From contig JALVAL010000098.1 in assembly GCA_027011205.1 (NCBI GenBank), forward strand, positions 1 through 37,038: 37,038 bases of DNA. Reading direction: 5' to 3'. Position 1 is the first letter of the stretch, and each line of letters starts with the position of its first letter. The notes under the pieces are model-generated. The model made no database searches. It was not told the DNA's origin and saw nothing but the letters and a program-made list of their open reading frames with translations. A program made the translations under genes and the position numbers. This DNA comes from Gammaproteobacteria bacterium. GTDB taxonomy: Bacteria; Pseudomonadota; Gammaproteobacteria; GRL18. Below are positions 12,848-36,683 of the stretch, piece after piece.

Positions 12848-14830
12848 ATGACAGAAGAAAACTTTTTCGACAATATCCATGCTTATGGGAAATGGAAAAG
12901 TAACCTGCTTGAAGCCATAGAAAATTTCCAGGACTGGCTGGACACCACTGGCCTGGAAGACAGTGAGCAAAGCCTGAAAATATATGAGACTCTGCAAACC
13001 CTGAAACACGACCGTATCACTCTGGCCTTTGTTGGTGAATTTTCACGCGGCAAAACCGAGCTCATAAATGCCATCTTTTTTTCTCAGTTCAAACGTCGTC
13101 TTCTGGCCAGTGAAGCCGGACGCACCACCATGTGCCCCACGGAGCTGTTTTATGATGTGGATGAACCTAAACCTTATATGCGCTTATTACCCATAGAAAG
13201 CCGGCTGGAAGACAATAGTATCTCTGAACAAAAGCAGAATCTGGTGAACTGGACCCATATTCAGCTGGATGTCTCCTCCCCTGACAGTATGGCCAGCTCC
13301 TTTGCCCAGATCACCAATACCAAAAAAGTGAAGGCCCGTGAGGCTAAGCGACTGGGACTGTATGATATTATTACCGATGACAACGGTACCGAACTATCTG
13401 ATCATGCCACGGTAGAAATTCCCATGTGGCGTCATGCCCTGATCAATTTCCCACATCCGTTTCTGGAGCAGGGGCTCTCTATTCTGGATACCCCAGGACT
13501 TAATTCCCTGGGTAATGAACCTGAACTGACTCTGAACATGCTGCCCAATGCCCAGGCCGCTATTTTCGTACTGGCTGCAGATACCGGGGTAACCCGTTCT
13601 GATATGGATATCTGGCGTCGTCATTTAAAAAGCTTTCGTCGTAATAACAATAGCGGTCTGGTTGTAGCACTGAACAAAATTGATACCCTCTGGGATGAAT
13701 TAAAAACCAGTCATGAAATTAAGGGCAGTATTCATAGAATGTGCTCCGAAACAGCCAAAACGCTGAATATCGACTCTAAACGGGTGTTTGCCATTTCCGC
13801 CCAGAAGGGTCTGATTGCCAGAGTTAAACATGATGAACAACTGCTCCGGGACAGCAATCTTGTGGCTATGGAAAATATTCTGTCTAATGAAATCCTGCCG
13901 CAAAAGGAACAACTGGTTCGTGATACTCTGATCACTGATATCAATGAAATGATGCACAGCTCCAAAGGTATTTTACTGACCCAGTTTAATTCCAGAAAAA
14001 AATCTATTGCGAGCCTGGGCGGCTTAAGCGGTAAAAATGAAAATATTATCCAGTTACTGCTGGAAAAAACCCGCGCAGAGCAGGCGGTTTACCATCGTAA
14101 TGCTAAAGCCCTGCAATCCAGTCGTCAAATTCTGTCGGGTCAGCATAATCGTCTTAAATCAATCATTGATCTTGAACGCCTGGATCAACAGGTCAATAAA
14201 GCCAGAACGCTAATGAAAGGTAGCTGGACCACTAATGGTATGAAAAATGCCATGAAAGCCCTGTTTGACGATATTAGCACCACTATGAATGATGCGGCCA
14301 AACAAACAGAACTGACCAACAGGCTGGTTAAATCTATTTACAACCGTTTCCAGAACCAGAATAAAGAAACAGGTATCAAACCCAAGCTGTTTTCCATTGC
14401 TTCCTATAAACAGGAAATTGATACTCTGTATGAGGATGCCGAAGAATACCGCACCAGTGTCTATTCCACTATGACCGAACAGAGTTTTGTGATTAAAAAA
14501 TTCTTTATTTCTCTGGTAAGCCGGGCACGTAATATTTATTACCAGCTTAATAAAGATGCTGATGACTGGGGTCGACGTGCTTTAACACCTTTAATTCGAC
14601 ACGTAAAAGCGCATAAAAAAGAACTTCAGTCCCGTCTGGAACAATTAAAGAAAGCCGGTCAGTCCCGGGATACTATCAGTGACAAAGTCAATGCGCTGAA
14701 AAAAGAAGCCAAGATTCTACAAAAACATCTGGTGGATATCAACAAAATACTGAGTACTGTTAACAGCCCTATGCCAGCAGTGATCCATGAGAAAAAAATA
14801 CCTGATAATGTCACTGCCATTCGCAGCTAA
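12848..14830 (+). CDS. Dynamin-like GTPase family protein
   Basis: A 660-residue large GTPase. The G1 P-loop is FVGEFSRGKTELINA (about 61-75), G2 is probably the threonine pair in GRTTMCPTE (about 96-104), G3 is ILDTPGLNS (about 212-220) and G4 is ALNKIDTLWDE (from about 274). The rest is charged and helical, with a probable coiled coil near the C-terminus (HVKAHKKELQSRLEQLKKAG, then NALKKEAKILQKHL). No membrane span is obvious, so membrane contact, if any, would be peripheral. Bacterial dynamin-like proteins remodel membranes or affect chromosome partition (for example CrfC) but this one is not close enough to name. dtd follows after 2 bp, so translation is probably coupled. Confidence 0.88.
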   Translation: MTEENFFDNIHAYGKWKSNLLEAIENFQDWLDTTGLEDSEQSLKIYETLQTLKHDRITLAFVGEFSRGKTELINAIFFSQFKRRLLASEAGRTTMCPTELFYDVDEPKPYMRLLPIESRLEDNSISEQKQNLVNWTHIQLDVSSPDSMASSFAQITNTKKVKAREAKRLGLYDIITDDNGTELSDHATVEIPMWRHALINFPHPFLEQGLSILDTPGLNSLGNEPELTLNMLPNAQAAIFVLAADTGVTRSDMDIWRRHLKSFRRNNNSGLVVALNKIDTLWDELKTSHEIKGSIHRMCSETAKTLNIDSKRVFAISAQKGLIARVKHDEQLLRDSNLVAMENILSNEILPQKEQLVRDTLITDINEMMHSSKGILLTQFNSRKKSIASLGGLSGKNENIIQLLLEKTRAEQAVYHRNAKALQSSRQILSGQHNRLKSIIDLERLDQQVNKARTLMKGSWTTNGMKNAMKALFDDISTTMNDAAKQTELTNRLVKSIYNRFQNQNKETGIKPKLFSIASYKQEIDTLYEDAEEYRTSVYSTMTEQSFVIKKFFISLVSRARNIYYQLNKDADDWGRRALTPLIRHVKAHKKELQSRLEQLKKAGQSRDTISDKVNALKKEAKILQKHLVDINKILSTVNSPMPAVIHEKKIPDNVTAIRS

Positions 14831-15894: not shown

Positions 15895-16476
15895 CTTCTG
15901 AGCGACCAGCATGGCTTCATTTCTAATTCCCTTGCCGGTGTCTCCTAATAAACCTTCCTCCCGATAATAACGCAGGGTCAGTTCTGAAAACATTTGCTGC
16001 AGCTCATTAAGCTGCAGCCGGTATTGAGAATTTTCTGGCCTTTCCTGCTGCTTACTGGATGGCACATAGGTTTCCTGAGTAAAAGTCTGATAGAAAATAA
16101 GCCCCCCGGGTTTTAATGCCTGAATTAAAGCTGGAACCAGTTCCCGTACCAGAAAACGGCTCACCAGGATCACATCAAAGCTTGCGGCATCCGGCACTAT
16201 CTGGCAGATATCACATTGCCGGGTATTGATCAGCAATTGACGTTCACGGGCAAATTCCTGAACTTTTTCCACGGCCTTATCTGAAATATCCCAGGCGTGA
16301 CTCTGATAACCTAATTCTGCCAGCCGTAAGGCATTGCCTCCCAGACCACAGGCCAGATCCAGTGACCGGCCCTGCCCATCTAATAAATGCTGATTCAGTT
16401 CCAGCACGTCAATGACCTGATTGGGTACATGGATATTTTCATATCGCTCATTCCATTTTAATCTAAACTTATCCAT
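15889..16476 (-). CDS. Class I SAM-dependent methyltransferase
   Basis: A 195-residue methyltransferase. The SAM motif is LDLACGLGGNALRLAELGYQ followed by the acidic end of strand 2 in AWDISDKAVE; motif II/III regions are FDVILVSRFLVRELV and ALKPGGLIFYQTF. This profile is common to TehB-like and small-molecule methyltransferases, so the substrate cannot be named. The start at 16476 is chosen because its ATG shares a base with the trkH stop (TAATG) and gives the natural opening MDKFRLKWNERY. A longer reading from 16563 would run backwards through trkH. It ends the minus-strand operon and overlaps the convergent lipoprotein gene by 6 bp. Confidence 0.85.
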   Translation of the reverse strand: MDKFRLKWNERYENIHVPNQVIDVLELNQHLLDGQGRSLDLACGLGGNALRLAELGYQSHAWDISDKAVEKVQEFARERQLLINTRQCDICQIVPDAASFDVILVSRFLVRELVPALIQALKPGGLIFYQTFTQETYVPSSKQQERPENSQYRLQLNELQQMFSELTLRYYREEGLLGDTGKGIRNEAMLVAQKS

Positions 16477-17927
16477 TAACGTCTCCAGAATGACGGCGTG
16501 AGTATAACCAGCAAAGTAAAAATTTCCAGTCGCCCCAGCAGCATGGCAAAACACAGCACCCATTTTGAAAAATCATTAATACTCTGATAATTAGCGCCTA
16601 CATCACCCAGCCCCGGCCCGAGATTGTTTAAACAGGCTGCCAGAGCAGAAAAGGCAGTAACCTGATCCAGACCACTGGCCATTAATATCAGCATCATAAT
16701 ACTGAAACTGGCCACATACAATGCAAAAAATCCCCAGATGGCGTTACTGACATTTTCCGGCATAGCCTTGCCACCGATTTTAACCGGGATTTGAGCACTG
16801 GGATGGATTAGACGGAAAATTTCTCTTAAGCCCTGTTTAAATAACAGAATAAAACGGATCACCTTCATACCGCCGCCGGTAGAACCCGCACAACCACCCA
16901 CAAAACTGATAAACAGCAGCATTACCGGTAAAAATCCTGGCCAGTTATAATAATCTGCCGTGGTAAAACCTGCCGTAGTGCCAATGGAAATGGTCTGAAA
17001 AATACCATGATGCACAGAATCTCCCCAGCTTTCAAAGGTACTGGAGTAATGTAAATACAATACCGATATCATAGACGCGGTAGCCAGTATCATCAAATAA
17101 ACCTGAAACTCTACATCAGAAAAATAATGTTTAATACTGCGCATACGCAGAGCGCTGAAATGCAGGGCAAAATTAATACCGGCCACCAGCATAAATACCC
17201 CGGCAATAATCTCAATCAGCTCATTATTAAAATAACCAATGGAGGCATCATGGGTAGAAAAACCACCAATGGCCACGGTAGAAAAACTATGCCCTATGGC
17301 ATCAAACAAACTCATACCTGCCAACCAGTATGCCAGAGCACAGGTAATGGTTAAGCCTAGATAAATATACCACAGCGCTTTAGCAGTTTCGGTAATTCTA
17401 GGTGTCAGTTTGCTGTCTTTAACGGGTCCGGGAGTTTCGGCCCGATACAGTTGCATACCTCCAATACCCAGCATGGGCAGTACCGCTACGGCCAGTACAA
17501 TAATACCCATACCACCCAGCCATTGCAGCTGCTGACGATAATAAAGTATAGATTTCGGTAATTCATCCAGACCGGTAAAAACGGTTGCCCCGGTAGTGGT
17601 TAAAGCAGAAATTGATTCAAACAGAGCATCAGTAAAGCTGGCATGCAGACTATGAGACAGATATAAGGGCAGTGAACCCACCAGACCAAAAACGGACCAG
17701 AACAGTACCACTACAATAAAGCCGTCGCGAATTCTCAGCTCCTTGCGCATATTTTTTACTGGCAGCCAGACAAACAGACCCGTTAGCAAAATCACCAGGA
17801 AAGCATCAATAAAGGCGCTGATTTCTGTATCCTGATACCATAGTGAAACCACAACAGGCGGTATAACCGTAGTACTGAAAACCATTAACAGCAGGCCGAC
17901 TATGCGTAAAATAACGAGGGGTTGCAT
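16476..17927 (-). CDS. trkH: Potassium uptake protein TrkH, membrane subunit
   Basis: Ion-conducting subunit of the Trk potassium uptake system, 483 residues, the same length as E. coli TrkH. It has four M1-P-M2 repeats with filter-like segments: SALTTTGATVFTGLD, STVAIGGFSTHDAS, ISIGTTAGFTTADY and AACLNNLGPGLGDVG, and the charged intramembrane region GCAGSTGGGMKVIRF. All are complete. It follows trkA by 12 bp, and its stop overlaps the methyltransferase start (TAATG). TrkA, encoded just upstream, forms the cytosolic gating ring; both belong to the ntrYX operon here, hinting that potassium uptake is produced together with this two-component system. Confidence 0.96.
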   Translation of the reverse strand: MQPLVILRIVGLLLMVFSTTVIPPVVVSLWYQDTEISAFIDAFLVILLTGLFVWLPVKNMRKELRIRDGFIVVVLFWSVFGLVGSLPLYLSHSLHASFTDALFESISALTTTGATVFTGLDELPKSILYYRQQLQWLGGMGIIVLAVAVLPMLGIGGMQLYRAETPGPVKDSKLTPRITETAKALWYIYLGLTITCALAYWLAGMSLFDAIGHSFSTVAIGGFSTHDASIGYFNNELIEIIAGVFMLVAGINFALHFSALRMRSIKHYFSDVEFQVYLMILATASMISVLYLHYSSTFESWGDSVHHGIFQTISIGTTAGFTTADYYNWPGFLPVMLLFISFVGGCAGSTGGGMKVIRFILLFKQGLREIFRLIHPSAQIPVKIGGKAMPENVSNAIWGFFALYVASFSIMMLILMASGLDQVTAFSALAACLNNLGPGLGDVGANYQSINDFSKWVLCFAMLLGRLEIFTLLVILTPSFWRR

Positions 17928-19328: not shown

Positions 19329-20744
19329 TTATTTTGATTTACTGACAATTTTTTTGGCATCAATACCCAGAGATTTCATTTTACGATATAAATGGGTACG
19401 TTCAACACCTGCCAGTTGGGCTACTTTACCCACGCTGCCGCCTACCTCTATCAGTTTTTGCTCCAGATAGGATTTTTCAAACATTTCTCTGGCTTCTTTT
19501 AATGGATGATCAAACAGACTCTGCAGAGCGTCGCTACCTGAGCTTTGCAGCGCACCCAGACCAAATTCACCGGTGGAACTTTGATATTTCTGTGCCAGAA
19601 CTTCCTCAATTTCCTGCAAAGATATAGTTTCCTGATCAGAGACAATTAACAGCCTCTGCACCAGGTTTTTTAACTCCAGTAAATTACCCGGCCAGTTATA
19701 ATTACGCAGACGGTTTAAGGCCGCAATGGAAAAACTGCGGTAATTAAACTGTTCCTGCTGTACAAAACGATCCCGATAATAGTTCAGAATATCCGGCACG
19801 TCTTCACAATGGTTACGCAGAGGAGGAATACTGACCGGCAATACATTTAACTGAAAATACAGTTCCGCTTTAAATTTCCCTTCTTTAACCAGCTGTTCCA
19901 GTGAATAATGTGTCGCGGTAATTATCCGGCAGTTAAGTACAATCGATTCTGTACCACCCAGACGATGAAACTGACCGGTTTCCAGAGTGCTTAACAAACG
20001 CCCCTGAGTAGCCGGATCCATATCGCCAATATCATCAATATACAAGGTTCCCTTACCTGCCTGTTCCAGCAAACCATAATATATTCTGCCATCCTGCTCT
20101 GATCCAAACAGTTCACGGGCAGAATTATCCGGATCAAGAGTGGCCACCCCCAGTTCAATATAGGGCTGATCGTAACGTGGACTCAGACGATGCAGCAGAC
20201 GGGAATATTTACTTTTACCGCTGCCGGCTTCCCCGACAAACAGAACCCTTGAATCATGCTGGGCAATCTGTTCAATTTCCCGACGCAAATCCTGATTAAC
20301 CTGGCTCTTGCCCACCGGCTCATCCACCGTCATCAATTGCTGACGCATACCCTGGTTTTCTTTATCCAGTTTGTAGGCTTCCAGGGCATGTTCAACCGTC
20401 AGCAGCAGTTTTGCCAGCGACAACGGTTTTTCCAGAAAGTCATAGGCACCCAGCCGGGTAGCTTCAACAGCGGTTTCAACACTGCCGTGACCCGACATCA
20501 TAATTACTGGAAAACGACTGATTTCATCATTTTCTGCCCATTCTTTTAATAAGCTGATACCATCAATATCAGGCATCCAGATATCCAGCAGCACCAGTTC
20601 CGGCTCTCTTTTTTGAAAACTTTCCCTGGCCGCCTGACCATTTTCTGCAATGTCGACTTCATAGCCTTCATCCTGCAGGATCTCCTGCACCAGTTCACGG
20701 ATATCCGGTTCATCATCAACAACAAGTATATAGGCAGATGCCAT
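19329..20744 (-). CDS. ntrX: NtrX-family response regulator with degenerate AAA+ domain
   Basis: Response regulator partner of NtrY, 471 residues: receiver (1-120) with DDE at 10-12, phospho-acceptor Asp54 and Lys106; AAA+ region (about 145-370); Fis-type helix-turn-helix at the end (GGSVGKVAQLAGVERTHLYRKM). Walker A is intact (GEAGSGKS, 171-178). The sigma-54-contact GAFTGA loop is absent: ELFGSEQDGRIYYGLLEQA runs straight through the site. Walker B ends in DD rather than DE (238), the arginine-finger region is FKAELYFQLN instead of FREDLxxRLN, and the GNVREL sensor II arginine is leucine (GNLLEL). It probably binds DNA and nucleotide but should not activate sigma-54 RNA polymerase. It is 37 bp after ntrY. 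Confidence 0.88.
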   Translation of the reverse strand: MASAYILVVDDEPDIRELVQEILQDEGYEVDIAENGQAARESFQKREPELVLLDIWMPDIDGISLLKEWAENDEISRFPVIMMSGHGSVETAVEATRLGAYDFLEKPLSLAKLLLTVEHALEAYKLDKENQGMRQQLMTVDEPVGKSQVNQDLRREIEQIAQHDSRVLFVGEAGSGKSKYSRLLHRLSPRYDQPYIELGVATLDPDNSARELFGSEQDGRIYYGLLEQAGKGTLYIDDIGDMDPATQGRLLSTLETGQFHRLGGTESIVLNCRIITATHYSLEQLVKEGKFKAELYFQLNVLPVSIPPLRNHCEDVPDILNYYRDRFVQQEQFNYRSFSIAALNRLRNYNWPGNLLELKNLVQRLLIVSDQETISLQEIEEVLAQKYQSSTGEFGLGALQSSGSDALQSLFDHPLKEAREMFEKSYLEQKLIEVGGSVGKVAQLAGVERTHLYRKMKSLGIDAKKIVSKSK

Positions 20745-20781: not shown

Positions 20782-22917
20782 TCAGGCAACCGGTAGTTTT
20801 ATAATAATTCTGGCACCGCCCTCAGAGGCATTTTCTGCAATGATAGAACCACCGTGTTCTTCAATAATTTTTTTTACAATAGCCAGCCCCAGACCAGTTC
20901 CCTTAGGCTTATTGGTCACATAAGGATCAAATATATTGGCCAGCATTTCCGGCGGAAAACCAGGTCCATTGTCGGATAATTCCAGTTCACACCAGTATTG
21001 ATTATTATGCTCCAGCAGATGGGTTTTGACCGTCAATACAATATTATCGTTTTTGCTGCTTGCTTCCAGTGCATTTTTAATCAAATTATGAAAAACCTGC
21101 CGTAAACGTCCCTGATCCACTTCTACCAGGGTGCCACTGATCCCCAGTTCCTGTTTTATAGTCAGTTTATCGCTGCCGCGATACAAATCAACTACTTCGG
21201 TCAATAAACTTTCAATATCCAGTGTCTGCATTTTCAGTTCAGGCATTTTAGCGTATTCTGAAAATGCCTTGACCATTTCCTTCATACTGTCCACCTGGTG
21301 AATAATTGTTGCTGTCAGGCGCTCCAGAGTTTCAGCATCTTGTTCATTCATGGTTTTCAGGTACTTATGGCGCAGACGTTCTGCCGATAGCTGAATAGGG
21401 GTCAGAGGATTTTTAATTTCATGAGCCAGACGTCTGGCCACCTCTCCCCATGCAGCATCTCTTTGCGCCTGCACCAGTGAGGTAACATTTTCAATAACAA
21501 TGACATAGCCGCCATCGGCCAGCGCAGTACCACGGCAAAGCAGATTTTTTCGACCATCCGATTCACTCAGGGTAACTTCCTCATTCCAGTGCTTTACCCG
21601 GTTCTGAATGGAACTCATAATCCTGCGCACCAGAGACTCAAGCTCCGGTTTTTCCCTGGTCAGCTGGAACAGAGACTGACCCAGATATTCATTGACATTA
21701 ATGCCCAGAATCACACTGGCTTCCGGATTGCTGGTACGGATCGCCTTATTCTCAGACAAACTGATGATCCCGGAGGACAAATTGCTTAACACGACTTCCA
21801 GATAATCACGCTGTCGTTTAGCCTGCTGGTGACTTTCTTCCAGAGCATTATGGGTTTGAGACAGGCGGCGCACCATTTTATTAAAGGACTGGATCAACAG
21901 ACCAAAGTCATCATCATTCAATAAAGGAATGGGTTTATGATATTCACCCTCCGCCACTGCCTTAGTGCCTTCAGCCAGATCACGAATCGGTTCTGCAATA
22001 CGTTTAGCCGAGAAAAAGGCTGCCCAGACCGCACTTAAAATACCTAATAGCAACACCAGAGACAGGGTCAGAGTAAAGCTGATTTTCAGTGGTTTGCGTA
22101 AATACACCAGACTCTTATATTCTGAATAGGCCTGTTGCACACTGGCCGCCAGACGGTGCTGACGTTCACTCAAAGGCGCCAGAGCCTGTAAGACCAGATA
22201 TTCTTTATCATTATTATATGGAATTCGCAGCAATATTCGAATCATTCGACTGGAGTTTTTACTCAGATCCACTACTACATGATCCCTGCCCTGCTGCAGA
22301 GGCAATAATAAATCTGAGCTGGGTAGATCCGGCACAATATCACCTTCCTCAATAGAACTGGAACCCAGAACACGACCTCCTGGCGTCATGAGCGTCACCT
22401 CGTCCATGCCGCCTTTTTCGCGTATTTCACTTAGCGAAACCACCGTTAAGGTACTCAGATCTTTAAGTGTTTCATCGGTCAGACGGCGCATTTGCCGCAG
22501 CAGGCTTTTTTTACGTTCATCCACAGCTGAACGGCTGAGTGTCAAGGCATCTTCCAGTGCCTTTTCAACAGTCACATCAAACCAGCTGTCAATACTGCGA
22601 TTGATAAACTGAATGGAAAAACTGTATACCACTAAGGCAGGGAAAATAGCCAGACTGACAAAAATAATAACCATTCTCAGTGTTAGACGTGCCCCAGCCA
22701 CATGCTGACGCAGCTGATGTAATAATCGCCAGGCCTGACGTGCAATCAGGAAGATCAGCATCACCAGAATGACCAGATTAACCGCCAGCAGCAGATAATA
22801 AAGCTGCTGAAACTGCTCTGCATCCATTGACGCACTATTAATCATACGCAGTGAGATTAACAGTAAAATAATCAGGATAAAGATGGCCAGAGGGCCGCTA
22901 AACACTTTTCTTATCAT
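20782..22917 (-). CDS. ntrY: NtrY-family membrane sensor histidine kinase
   Basis: Sensor kinase paired with the downstream NtrX-like regulator. The 711 residues hold three N-terminal membrane helices (about 5-25, 39-60, 82-105), an extracytoplasmic domain of about 170 residues, a fourth helix (about 280-300), a HAMP linker (AEPIRDLAEGTKAVAEGEY), a PAS domain (DYLEVVLSNLSSGIISLSE), the phospho-acceptor segment RRLAHEIKNPLTPIQLSAERL and an HATPase domain with NLIKNALEAS, DNGPGFP and GTGLGLAIVKKI. All kinase motifs are intact, in contrast to the worn AAA+ domain of its partner. It overlaps the DUF4390 gene by ATGA. NtrYX systems in other bacteria respond to nitrogen or redox state; the signal here is unknown. 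Confidence 0.93.
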   Translation of the reverse strand: MIRKVFSGPLAIFILIILLLISLRMINSASMDAEQFQQLYYLLLAVNLVILVMLIFLIARQAWRLLHQLRQHVAGARLTLRMVIIFVSLAIFPALVVYSFSIQFINRSIDSWFDVTVEKALEDALTLSRSAVDERKKSLLRQMRRLTDETLKDLSTLTVVSLSEIREKGGMDEVTLMTPGGRVLGSSSIEEGDIVPDLPSSDLLLPLQQGRDHVVVDLSKNSSRMIRILLRIPYNNDKEYLVLQALAPLSERQHRLAASVQQAYSEYKSLVYLRKPLKISFTLTLSLVLLLGILSAVWAAFFSAKRIAEPIRDLAEGTKAVAEGEYHKPIPLLNDDDFGLLIQSFNKMVRRLSQTHNALEESHQQAKRQRDYLEVVLSNLSSGIISLSENKAIRTSNPEASVILGINVNEYLGQSLFQLTREKPELESLVRRIMSSIQNRVKHWNEEVTLSESDGRKNLLCRGTALADGGYVIVIENVTSLVQAQRDAAWGEVARRLAHEIKNPLTPIQLSAERLRHKYLKTMNEQDAETLERLTATIIHQVDSMKEMVKAFSEYAKMPELKMQTLDIESLLTEVVDLYRGSDKLTIKQELGISGTLVEVDQGRLRQVFHNLIKNALEASSKNDNIVLTVKTHLLEHNNQYWCELELSDNGPGFPPEMLANIFDPYVTNKPKGTGLGLAIVKKIIEEHGGSIIAENASEGGARIIIKLPVA

Positions 22918-23621
22918 TGTGCCTGCTCCTGATGCTTTTGATTGCTGCTGTTATTATCAGCAAAAGTCACCGGCCATTGAAACCAGTTGCTTTCAAGACG
23001 CCATGCCGAAGACAGAGCAGCAATCTGTCGCAATGCCGGGGGCAGGTGATTAATATCCAGTAAAGTATGAATCCGGACAAAATAATGCTCTCCCGGATTG
23101 AGCTTTTTTCGTTTTATCAGGTGGGCGCCACGAATCGTCCCCAGCACGGCCAGAGCTTCTTTACGACTATTAAAGCTATAACGCTCATCATCGGCCAGAT
23201 TCTTAACCACATGAACATCCGTCAGTGGATGATAGCGCAACTCAAACAACTGCAAAGATTCCTTAACAATATCATTACGCCACCATGGTCGTTTACGATA
23301 CACCTGGACTTCTACTGCAATGGTCAGAGGTATACCATTTTCCAGCGCTTCAACCACCTGTTTGGTGAAATTCATGGTTAAATTCGCATCAATCAGAATA
23401 TCACCGTCTTTAGCATAGGTTTTTGCCGAGTTAACCAGAAATTTATTCTGTTCGCTGTATTGCGGCAGTAATTCAAATACCACAAAAATTGTTATAGAAG
23501 CCAGAGTCCCAATAAACAGCAGCAGAAAAAACTGCTTTTTTGAAACTGTTTTATCCGGCTTTTCTGTAAGCAATAGTTTTATGTCCCGGGATGATTCTTT
23601 ATTGCTCATTATCGTTTTCAT
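22914..23621 (-). CDS. DUF4390 domain-containing membrane-anchored protein
   Basis: A 235-residue protein with one N-terminal membrane segment (about 29-51) and a periplasmic DUF4390 domain, recognised from LVNSAKTYAKDGDILIDANLTM, LENGIPLTIAVEVQVYRKRPWW and a C-terminal FVRIHTLLDINHLPPALRQIA segment. The function is unknown, but the gene is regularly found between rsmB and ntrY, so a role in signal input to NtrY is a fair guess. The start is uncertain: ATG at 23621 (overlapping rsmB by 23 bp) or at 23609 (MSNKESSRD); neither has a strong ribosome site. The stop overlaps ntrY (ATGA). Confidence 0.85.
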   Translation of the reverse strand: MKTIMSNKESSRDIKLLLTEKPDKTVSKKQFFLLLFIGTLASITIFVVFELLPQYSEQNKFLVNSAKTYAKDGDILIDANLTMNFTKQVVEALENGIPLTIAVEVQVYRKRPWWRNDIVKESLQLFELRYHPLTDVHVVKNLADDERYSFNSRKEALAVLGTIRGAHLIKRKKLNPGEHYFVRIHTLLDINHLPPALRQIAALSSAWRLESNWFQWPVTFADNNSSNQKHQEQAQ

Positions 23622-24990
23622 CCACGCAGCGAGTCATCTGTTTTTCCAGCAGGGCATAATAAAAGCCATCCATACCCTGCTCTCCCGGCAGGATCTGTCT
23701 GCCCGCAGGCATAGCATAACCCCAGTTACCTGAAATGGGTATTTCTCCAGCATCTTTGAAACTGTCATTATTACGCTGCAGAAAATTCACTATCTGACGA
23801 TCATTTTCTTCTCTGAGTATGGAGCATGTTGCATACAGTAAACGTCCTCCCGGCTTTAACATAGCCCAGAGATTATCAAGTATTGCCGCCTGCAAAACCG
23901 TCAGGGCGGCAATATCGGCATCACGTCTGAGGACTTTAATATCTGGATGCCGGCGAATAACTCCGGTGGCTGAACAGGGTGCATCCAGTAATATTCGATC
24001 AAAAAGTCGGCCATCCCACCAGTCCTGTACACTGGCATCCGCTGCCAGCAGATGTAATTTTTGGGCTGAAAGATTCAGCCGCTGCCGGCTTTCCTCTACT
24101 CTTGACAGTCGCTCTGCACTGACATCCAGAGCCAGCAGTGAGTCTAATTGCGGCTGACTGTCCATTATATGCATGGTTTTGCCTCCCGGTGCGGCACAGG
24201 CGTCCAGTACCCGCTGCTGTGGTCCAACATCCAGCAGTAATGCGGCCAGTTGAGCCGCACCGTCCTGCACCGATACTCTGCCCTGACTGAATCCAGGCAA
24301 CTCATCCACTGGGCGGGCTTTGTCCAGAGTCAAAGTATGATTATAAACAGGACTTTGGGTACAGCCAATATTGAGCTGCTGCAGGGTTTGCTGATAGCTG
24401 AAAATATCTTCCTCAACATGTACTCTCAAGGTCATGGGTGGGCGTTGATTACCCGCCGCCAGAATGCTCTGGGGTGTCACTGATGCCTGTGGCCAGGCGG
24501 ATTTCTGCCAGGAAAGTTTAATGCGGGTGATCAGCCAGTCAGGATAGGCAAAGCGACTGGCATAAGATTTATCCAGAGAGCTGAGCAGCTCGGACTGTTC
24601 TCTTAAAAAACGTCTCAATACTGCATTCACCAGACCTTTAGCCCAGGCCTGCTGTAAATCTGCACAGGTATTCACCGTTTCCTTAACCACGGCATAATCC
24701 GCTTTATCTAAATACAGTATCTGATACAGTCCACAAAGCAATAGATAGTAAATAATTTTTTTCTTACCCCTGAGCGGCTTATCCAGCATTTTTTGCAAAA
24801 TAGCATCCAGCCGGTAATACCAGCGTAAAGTGCCGTAGCTGATTTCCTGAGCCAGCGGACGCTGCTGTTCTGCCAGTGGCTCCAGATATCGAGGTAATAA
24901 GGTGGCCAGAGACTGACCCGACTCCAGACATTCAAACACCACCAGCAGCGCCATTGCTCTAGGGGTCTTTTTAAGGGCCATTTTTAACAT
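23599..24990 (-). CDS. rsmB: 16S rRNA (cytosine(967)-C5)-methyltransferase RsmB
   Basis: Methylates C967 of 16S rRNA using SAM. The 463-residue protein has an N-terminal NusB-like RNA-binding domain (TPRAMALLVVFECLESGQSL, then LAQEISYGTLRW) and a C-terminal NOL1/NOP2/sun catalytic domain with DACAAPGGKTMHIMD, ILLDAPCSATGVIRRHPDIK and the nucleophile-bearing YATCSILREENDRQI. It is somewhat longer than E. coli RsmB (429). The first ATG (24990) and a second (24981, MALKKTPR) are both possible; neither has a clear Shine–Dalgarno. It follows fmt by 5 bp. Confidence 0.96.
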   Translation of the reverse strand: MLKMALKKTPRAMALLVVFECLESGQSLATLLPRYLEPLAEQQRPLAQEISYGTLRWYYRLDAILQKMLDKPLRGKKKIIYYLLLCGLYQILYLDKADYAVVKETVNTCADLQQAWAKGLVNAVLRRFLREQSELLSSLDKSYASRFAYPDWLITRIKLSWQKSAWPQASVTPQSILAAGNQRPPMTLRVHVEEDIFSYQQTLQQLNIGCTQSPVYNHTLTLDKARPVDELPGFSQGRVSVQDGAAQLAALLLDVGPQQRVLDACAAPGGKTMHIMDSQPQLDSLLALDVSAERLSRVEESRQRLNLSAQKLHLLAADASVQDWWDGRLFDRILLDAPCSATGVIRRHPDIKVLRRDADIAALTVLQAAILDNLWAMLKPGGRLLYATCSILREENDRQIVNFLQRNNDSFKDAGEIPISGNWGYAMPAGRQILPGEQGMDGFYYALLEKQMTRCVDENDNEQ

Positions 24991-35774: not shown

Positions 35775-36683
35775 ATGCGAAACACCAAGGATACCTATAA
35801 AACTACCGTTGCCTCTACCTTGAAACGATATGACGATATGTTCAAAAAACAGGCGTTATATTTACGTATCATCTACCCGGAATCTCAGTGCAAATGCTAT
35901 GAACTACAGGATAAACCCCTGACGATTGGCCGTGGTAATGATGCCGATATTAAACTCAATGATGATTTAATATCACGTAACCACTGTAAAGTTAGTATCC
36001 TCAACGATCAACTAATAGTAGAAGATCTGGGTTCCACCAATGGCACCCTGATAGATGGTAAAACGATCAGCTGCCAGGTTCTGAAATTCGATGAACGTTT
36101 ACAGGTTGGTCCCTATGTGATGAAAATAGAACATAAGGATCCCCATGAAGTGCAATTTGAGAAAAATCTGTTTACTGCAGCAACCACTGATGGCCTGACT
36201 GGTTTACTTAATCGCCGTTGTTTCAATGAACGTTCGCTACAGCAGCTTGAAAACTGTTCCAGTGAACAGCAACAGTTTTCACTGGTCATGCTGGATATTG
36301 ATCACTTTAAACAGATTAATGATTGTTATGGTCATCCTGCCGGAGATAAGGTAATCAAAAGCATTGCCGGTATGCTCAACAATAATAAACGTTGTAATGA
36401 TCTGATTGGACGTTATGGCGGTGAAGAATTTATAATGATGTTACCCCAGACTTGCAGCAAGGAAGCCGCTGCTTTTTGTGAACGTATCCGTAGTAATATT
36501 GAGAATCTGAGTATCCGCTATGAGGAACACCACATCCGTGTTACAGTTTCCATCGGTATTATCAGCCTGACAAGCAGCACTGAAAAAAACATGGAAACCT
36601 TAATCGAAATGTCGGACCATTGTTTATATCAGGCTAAAAATCAGGGCAGAAACCGTATTATACAAAACATGACACAAGATTAA
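35775..36683 (+). CDS. FHA domain–GGDEF diguanylate cyclase
   Basis: A 302-residue cytosolic protein. An N-terminal FHA domain (about 48-100) has the phosphothreonine-binding pattern LTIGRGNDADIKL, SRNHCKV and LGSTNGTLIDG. A GGDEF domain follows (about 134-300) with LDIDHFKQINDCYGHPAGD and the active-site GGEEF at 215-219; the inhibitory RxxD site is present as RCND (206-209). It should make cyclic di-GMP and be product-inhibited, with activity or location governed by binding a phosphothreonine protein. A strong ribosome site AAGGAAG precedes it. It converges with the gene at 36680, overlapping it by 4 bp. Confidence 0.94.
   Translation: MRNTKDTYKTTVASTLKRYDDMFKKQALYLRIIYPESQCKCYELQDKPLTIGRGNDADIKLNDDLISRNHCKVSILNDQLIVEDLGSTNGTLIDGKTISCQVLKFDERLQVGPYVMKIEHKDPHEVQFEKNLFTAATTDGLTGLLNRRCFNERSLQQLENCSSEQQQFSLVMLDIDHFKQINDCYGHPAGDKVIKSIAGMLNNNKRCNDLIGRYGGEEFIMMLPQTCSKEAAAFCERIRSNIENLSIRYEEHHIRVTVSIGIISLTSSTEKNMETLIEMSDHCLYQAKNQGRNRIIQNMTQD

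Follow-up and report, generated by a model that had tools for sequence, protein, structure and literature searches.

The 471-aa product of a gene within the 37,038-nucleotide stretch of DNA analyzed here (the window), which originates from an uncultured gammaproteobacterium, is the NtrX of an NtrYX/PlrPSR system, and it is proposed, with a probability of roughly 0.78, to act as a phosphorylation-controlled, sigma-54-independent DNA-binding regulator in which the AAA+ domain serves as a pseudo-ATPase scaffold. As the working parts of its motor were lost within a stepwise decay that extends across the lineage, the protein is almost certainly not the sigma-54 activator that it is annotated to be.

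The interval 19329 to 20744 given for this gene by an earlier, sequence-only reading is correct, with the gene encoded by the minus strand; over the same interval, the plus strand is riddled with stops. Pfam analysis of the product identified a receiver, a sigma-54 activator-type AAA+ domain, an AAA lid, and a Fis-type helix-turn-helix (HTH), as follows.

19329..20744, minus strand: ntrX (plrR-like) response regulator gene, 471 aa, frame 19332-20744 plus stop (open reading frame, profile searches, AlphaFold mean pLDDT 92)
20379..20735, minus strand: receiver domain, aa 4-122 (PF00072)
20583..20585, minus strand: phospho-acceptor D54, kept in 84/84 other gamma NtrX and 22/22 of its own family
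19818..20318, minus strand: AAA+ core, aa 143-309, degenerate (PF00158)
19602..19817, minus strand: AAA+ lid, aa 310-381 (PF25601)
19362..19490, minus strand: Fis-type HTH ERTHLYRKMKSLG, aa 419-461 (PF02954)

The PF00158 score of the ntrX product is 136 bits, compared with 215 to 254 bits for 12 canonical paralogs of the same genome, which encodes one RpoN together with 12 canonical sigma-54 activators and carries a canonical NtrC on contig C559. The nearest relatives of the host are metagenome-assembled genomes (MAGs), part of which are labelled invertebrate symbionts. In one genome of the same genus (G002, 99% complete), the sole match to the ntrX product is a distant paralog, representing either gene loss or an assembly gap. 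Among curated-family profiles, NF051870 (equivalog “nitrogen assimilation NtrX”) is the top match out of 114 families, with a score of 440 bits which lies below the 600-bit cut-off, so that the protein is not filed under the equivalog.

Read along the minus strand, the genes run def-fmt-rsmB-DUF4390-ntrY-ntrX-trkA-trkH; def, fmt, and rsmB are named by sequence reading.

20782..22917, minus strand: ntrY/plrS sensor kinase gene (NtrY_N, HAMP, PAS, HisKA, and HATPase_c; HEIKN box and ATPase boxes intact)
22914..23621, minus strand: DUF4390 plrP-like gene (PF14334, E 1.3e-41), sharing 4 bp with ntrY
23599..24990, minus strand: rsmB rRNA methyltransferase gene, the usual upstream neighbour (sequence reading; PMC13001219)
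17940..19313, minus strand: trkA, downstream neighbour (profile search)
16476..17927, minus strand: trkH, downstream neighbour (profile search)

Assignment to NtrX/PlrR of the NtrYX family is based on the position of the regulator gene directly after that of an NtrY-type kinase, on the presence of DUF4390 and rsmB upstream, and on NtrX being the best family and structure match. The HEIKN box of NtrY is of the type associated with bifunctional kinase/phosphatase enzymes, and residues D54, S84, and K106 of the receiver show no variation across 106 NtrX sequences; the earlier proposal of phosphorylation control is supported by these invariant receiver residues and by the adjacent, intact NtrY. 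Residues E448, R449, and K455 of the HTH are likewise invariant in NtrX. A promoter scan returned 25 sites, against 19.5 expected from shuffled sequence; published NtrX binding motifs, CAAN3-5TTG and GCAN9TGC, are very short and discordant between species. Elsewhere in the window, a 660-aa dynamin-family GTPase is encoded near the ntrX cluster on the plus strand (12848-14830), and positions 35775-36683 specify, by sequence reading, an FHA-GGDEF protein which is a possible diguanylate cyclase.

The motif states of the AAA+ domain were established by alignment against eight canonical enhancer-binding proteins (EBPs) of the host genome and 30 NtrC orthologs.

20073..20114, minus strand: L1 loop, aa 211-224, with a 5-residue deletion removing GAFTGA (EBP alignment)
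20031..20045, minus strand: Walker B LYIDD, with Asp238 in place of the catalytic Glu (alignments with EBPs and NtrC)
19851..19874, minus strand: arginine-finger segment FKAELYFQ, aa 291-298 (alignments with EBPs and NtrC)
19674..19688, minus strand: sensor II GNLLE, Leu356 for Arg (alignments with EBPs and NtrC)
19908..19916, minus strand: sensor I ATH, aa 277-279, as is standard in NtrC (NtrC alignment)
20211..20234, minus strand: Walker A GEAGSGKS, aa 171-178, retained (EBP alignment)
20148..20150, minus strand: switch Asn position, Gly199 (NtrC comparison)

Most of the losses read from the sequence alone were borne out by these alignments. Five residues are deleted at L1, where the protein reads ELFGSEQDG-----RIYYG and the canonical EBPs read ELFGHEKGAFTGA..., and no GAFTGA-like sequence occurs elsewhere in this protein or in any of 106 gamma NtrX. 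Walker B ends in DD (E238 to D), the arginine-finger region is altered at two positions (R292 to K and R298 to Q), and the sensor II arginine is leucine (R356 to L), while Walker A, D54, and the HTH are retained as claimed, as is K106. The switch asparagine (N64 of PspF), which had been overlooked, is Gly199 here and Asn in 30/30 NtrC. The supposed loss of sensor I, on the other hand, was discarded, since ATH is found in 4/8 own-genome paralogs and the histidine in 30/30 NtrC. A sequencing artefact was excluded by the occurrence of the same states in MAG relatives of 97% and about 80% identity. The E108D substitution in PspF reduces ATPase activity (PMC4132715), and the NtrC1 counterpart of R298 touches the gamma-phosphate in trans (PMC7175178). 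Although R-to-K and E-to-D are mild substitutions, which count against a dead motor, the combination of several changes makes normal hydrolysis unlikely, and ATP hydrolysis has probably been lost in this NtrX.

The degenerate AAA+ domain, which had been presented as though peculiar to this protein, proved to be the general appearance of gamma NtrX. The comparison covered 106 gamma NtrX (84 outside the protein’s own family and 22 within it) and the 30 NtrC orthologs; NtrX sequences were collected mostly by way of the neighbouring DUF4390 gene, with nine obtained from a protein search, and most of the sample is therefore independent of AAA+ similarity. GAFTGA is present in 0/84 of the other gamma NtrX versus 30/30 NtrC, and all six ATPase residues are kept in 6/84 versus 30/30. 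Among these 84, retention is lowest for R298 (17), followed by the Walker B Asp (30) and Glu (41), the sensor II Arg (63), R292 (70), and the Walker A Lys (70); within the own family, the Walker A Lys (K177) is kept in 22/22 and the Walker B D237 in 21/22. The least conserved positions of gamma NtrX include the switch Asn, the Walker B Asp, sensor I, and R298. Across 20 matched genomes, mean identity of the AAA+ core, which in NtrC is the domain of highest conservation, is 87% for NtrC versus 53% for NtrX, while that of the receiver is 67% versus 73%. Among the informative pairs, the receiver surpasses the AAA+ core in conservation in 171/171 for NtrX, whereas the core surpasses the receiver in 171/171 for NtrC, counts which describe a pattern and do not constitute a statistical test, as the pairs are mutually non-independent.

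Outside the gammaproteobacteria, the full ATPase set was found in 28/30 alpha NtrX and GAFTGA in 0/30, in a sample of best-scoring matches which is biased towards intact forms and in which the alpha label rests on passing the NF051870 cut-off. A second set of 20 sequences, drawn from further families within the phylum (one of the same class), contained 12 full sets, some with GAFTGA or GAFPGA. Among the NtrX-like proteins of family f186, L245 and L263 keep GAFTGA, and their siblings L246, L247, and L264 read GAFPGA. Three Desulfobacterales/Deltaproteobacteria regulators (L142, L143, and L144), with approximately 40% identity to the NtrX described here, possess GAFTGA or GSFTGA along with all ATPase residues and are possible relatives in the ancestral state.

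On an NtrX tree built with the motif columns left out, the intact KDERRR set is basal, being present in alpha (Brucella), delta (Desulfobacterales relatives), and early gamma branches (L112 and L120), and is followed by many later losses. The minimum number of changes is 8 for K177, 23 for D237, 15 for E238, 11 for R292, 14 for R298, and 19 for R356, under a parsimony in which loss and regain are inseparable and on a tree with many weakly supported deep branches. R298 was lost early, and R292, still Arg in the own-family members L030 and L032, was the last to change there. The own family probably lost its motor stepwise, with GAFTGA going first, then R298, E238, and R356, and R292 last.

AlphaFold modelling with 77 locus sequences returned a mean pLDDT of 92 and a pTM of 0.64, values which indicate that the domains, and not their arrangement, are confidently predicted. 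The top matches of a structure search were entries for Brucella NtrX, some of them bound to ATP or ADP (5m7n being best, with 38% identity), and the AAA+ part matched NtrC1, FlrC, and FleQ with target TM-scores of about 0.9; the AAA+ fold is, as predicted, kept. A nucleotide-gated sigma-70 regulator, as put forward in part by the earlier reading, would need ATP binding without hydrolysis; it is a sub-case of the pseudo-ATPase reading, with which its confidence overlaps, and is entertained tentatively. It is consistent with the Walker A GxxGSGK of 22/22 own-family members, with the P-loop glycines of gamma NtrX (94-100% kept, 89th-98th conservation percentile), with the Brucella crystals, and with the precedent of Rhodobacter capsulatus NtrC (PMC10274813), whose features of absent GAFTGA and retained Walker A are present in this NtrX. 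The retention of K177 and D237 in the own family counts against the pseudo-ATPase scaffold reading, as ATP binding may matter. Against nucleotide gating, 14/84 gamma relatives lack K177, which changed no fewer than 8 times on the tree, the domain is entirely absent in some relatives, and the loss of the switch Asn, Walker B Glu, and R298 implies that bound nucleotide could not be coupled as it normally is.

Conversion of the AAA+ domain to sense a different ligand, for instance c-di-GMP as in VpsR and FleQ, is unlikely. The P-loop pocket is retained and the structure search also returned VpsR, an EBP that is itself degenerate and has c-di-GMP-binding structures, but pocket residues are highly variable between families. 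The c-di-GMP motif of FleQ, LFRS, lies ahead of its AAA+ domain; an LFRS-type motif is absent, as read by eye, from aa 125-150 of this NtrX.

Genomes at the end of the series bear on two further alternatives. In G194 (98% complete), no RpoN was detectable in a search by two domains, and the sole PF00158 protein is an NtrX with FNPDQH at the six sites, its Walker A Lys gone; no other EBP is present, and the whole DUF4390-ntrY-ntrX-trkA cluster is retained (contig C23, locus L297). RpoN also occurs in 172/178 DUF4390 genomes, so that co-occurrence alone does not show sigma-54 independence. It was dropped as a general proof, as only G194 is clean among the six exceptions, several of which keep canonical NtrC or other EBPs and are probably assembly gaps. 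That the protein is a conventional sigma-54 activator whose contact loop has diverged and whose ATPase activity is weak could be imagined from the RpoN and 12 canonical EBPs of the host and from a 2025 survey which still places NtrX among the sigma-54 EBPs (PMC12194929). It is nonetheless highly improbable in view of the missing GAFTGA, the loss of both arginine fingers, catalytic Glu, switch Asn, and sensor II, and the NtrX of G194. The same genome argues against a dead NtrX subunit entering and modulating the rings formed by canonical EBPs, NtrC for example: such mixed oligomers, conceivable given the canonical NtrC of the host, have a similarly slight probability, since the trans residues of the subunit interface are lost and G194 keeps NtrX without any other EBP. 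The earlier suggestion that the protein is not an enhancer-binding sigma-54 activator is well supported by the deletion of GAFTGA, the loss of catalytic and trans residues, the lineage-wide decay, and the RpoN-less genome that keeps NtrX.

NtrX proteins without an AAA+ domain correspond to open frames of 230-240 aa, and the genomes encoding them here appear to be betas. On a receiver-plus-HTH tree, they are sister (support 96/91) to fully degenerate f100 forms of G122 and G233, whose six sites are A-R-L-N-S-M and A-R-L-N-L-S, respectively. This is the pattern expected of AAA+ excision after decay, of which a single such pairing is suggestive only. The NtrX of G122 (L298:3423-4715) is an orphan adjoining tatC. 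G114, in which RpoN is not detectable, encodes a 198-aa AAA+-less NtrX-like orphan beside rpoC (L296:3517-4113); a second excision is not claimed there, given this orphan context and an unsure, long-branched tree position. We consider it probable, if with some reserve, that gamma NtrX form a series in which an ATP-driven sigma-54 activator was first deprived of its contact loop, its hydrolysis machinery then eroding bit by bit and on repeated occasions until the domain disappeared altogether (beta type), with phospho-signalling and DNA recognition remaining fixed.

The dN/dS of the AAA+ core is 0.065 in own-family NtrX versus 0.013 in NtrC, with 0.02-0.05 for the other NtrX domains, figures which are rough as synonymous sites are near saturation; the NtrX AAA+ domain is under relaxed yet maintained purifying selection. 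Neutral decay of a non-functional gene, for which the approximately fivefold excess over NtrC might speak, has a negligible probability given values of 0.02-0.065 across all domains, invariant receiver and HTH motifs, a conserved operon, and the reported essentiality of PlrR~P in Bordetella (PMC13001219).

Under the preferred reading of a sigma-54-independent regulator with a pseudo-ATPase scaffold, NtrY would phosphorylate or dephosphorylate D54 of NtrX, its action presumably being modulated by the periplasmic DUF4390 partner, as gene context and the Bordetella system suggest. Phosphorylation would alter dimerization and DNA binding by the Fis-type HTH, which would activate or repress at sigma-70-type promoters. 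The AAA+ domain, with its fold and P-loop kept, would be a pseudo-ATPase, devoid of sigma-54 contact loop, arginine fingers, catalytic Glu, and sensor II Arg, and may function as a dimer or linker scaffold, possibly with static nucleotide binding. The sequence losses, their spread over the lineage, the conserved receiver and HTH, the gene context, and the predicted fold are findings of the analysis, whereas the loss of hydrolysis, the sigma-54 independence, the sigma-70 targets, and the scaffold role are what we infer for this NtrX.

If the proposed series from motor to absent domain is true, a motor-type regulator became a simple sigma-70-type response regulator via a pseudo-ATPase intermediate that is still extant. 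Databases label such proteins sigma-54 activators and regulon surveys count NtrX as one, whereas the present data argue otherwise for a whole class of bacteria; moreover, extant forms that run from an intact AAA+ to none at all render the role of the domain, once it no longer drives the motor, directly testable. NtrYX/PlrSR is relevant to envelope control, denitrification, and infection. The absence of GAFTGA from NtrX is already known, being recorded for Caulobacter (PMC10274813) and, as a table entry, for the gammaproteobacterium Thioalkalivibrio (PMC5744179), as is the absence of AAA+ from beta NtrX; no account of graded catalytic decay in gamma NtrX was found in the open-access literature.

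The closest system is PlrP-PlrS-PlrR of Bordetella, which shares the order rsmB-plrP-plrS-plrR-trkA-trkH, the DUF4390 partner, the HEIKN kinase, and the 4-bp plrP/plrS overlap, whereas the AAA+ domain, reported absent from PlrR/beta NtrX (PMC13001219), is present but degenerate here. Alpha NtrX of Brucella and Caulobacter has the same REC-AAA+-Fis architecture without GAFTGA and provides the best sequence and fold match (5m7n), but 28/30 alpha proteins keep the six ATPase residues, of which 4/6 are changed here, and this ntrX has no ntrBC neighbour. NtrC of R. capsulatus, which works with sigma-70 (PMC10274813), and of Caulobacter are also EBP relatives that lack GAFTGA and act at sigma-70 promoters; they belong, however, to another orthologous group, and the former needs ATP binding and the latter both Walker motifs. 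GAFTGA-defective homologs acting without sigma-54 are on record (PMC3162934), and VpsR, HupR, TyrR, and DhaR, none of them sigma-54 activators, resemble this NtrX in that respect but are not NtrX orthologs and have other partners and ligands. Finally, the NtrC of the same genome shares the REC-AAA+-Fis architecture and differs in that its GAFTGA and all catalytic residues are intact.
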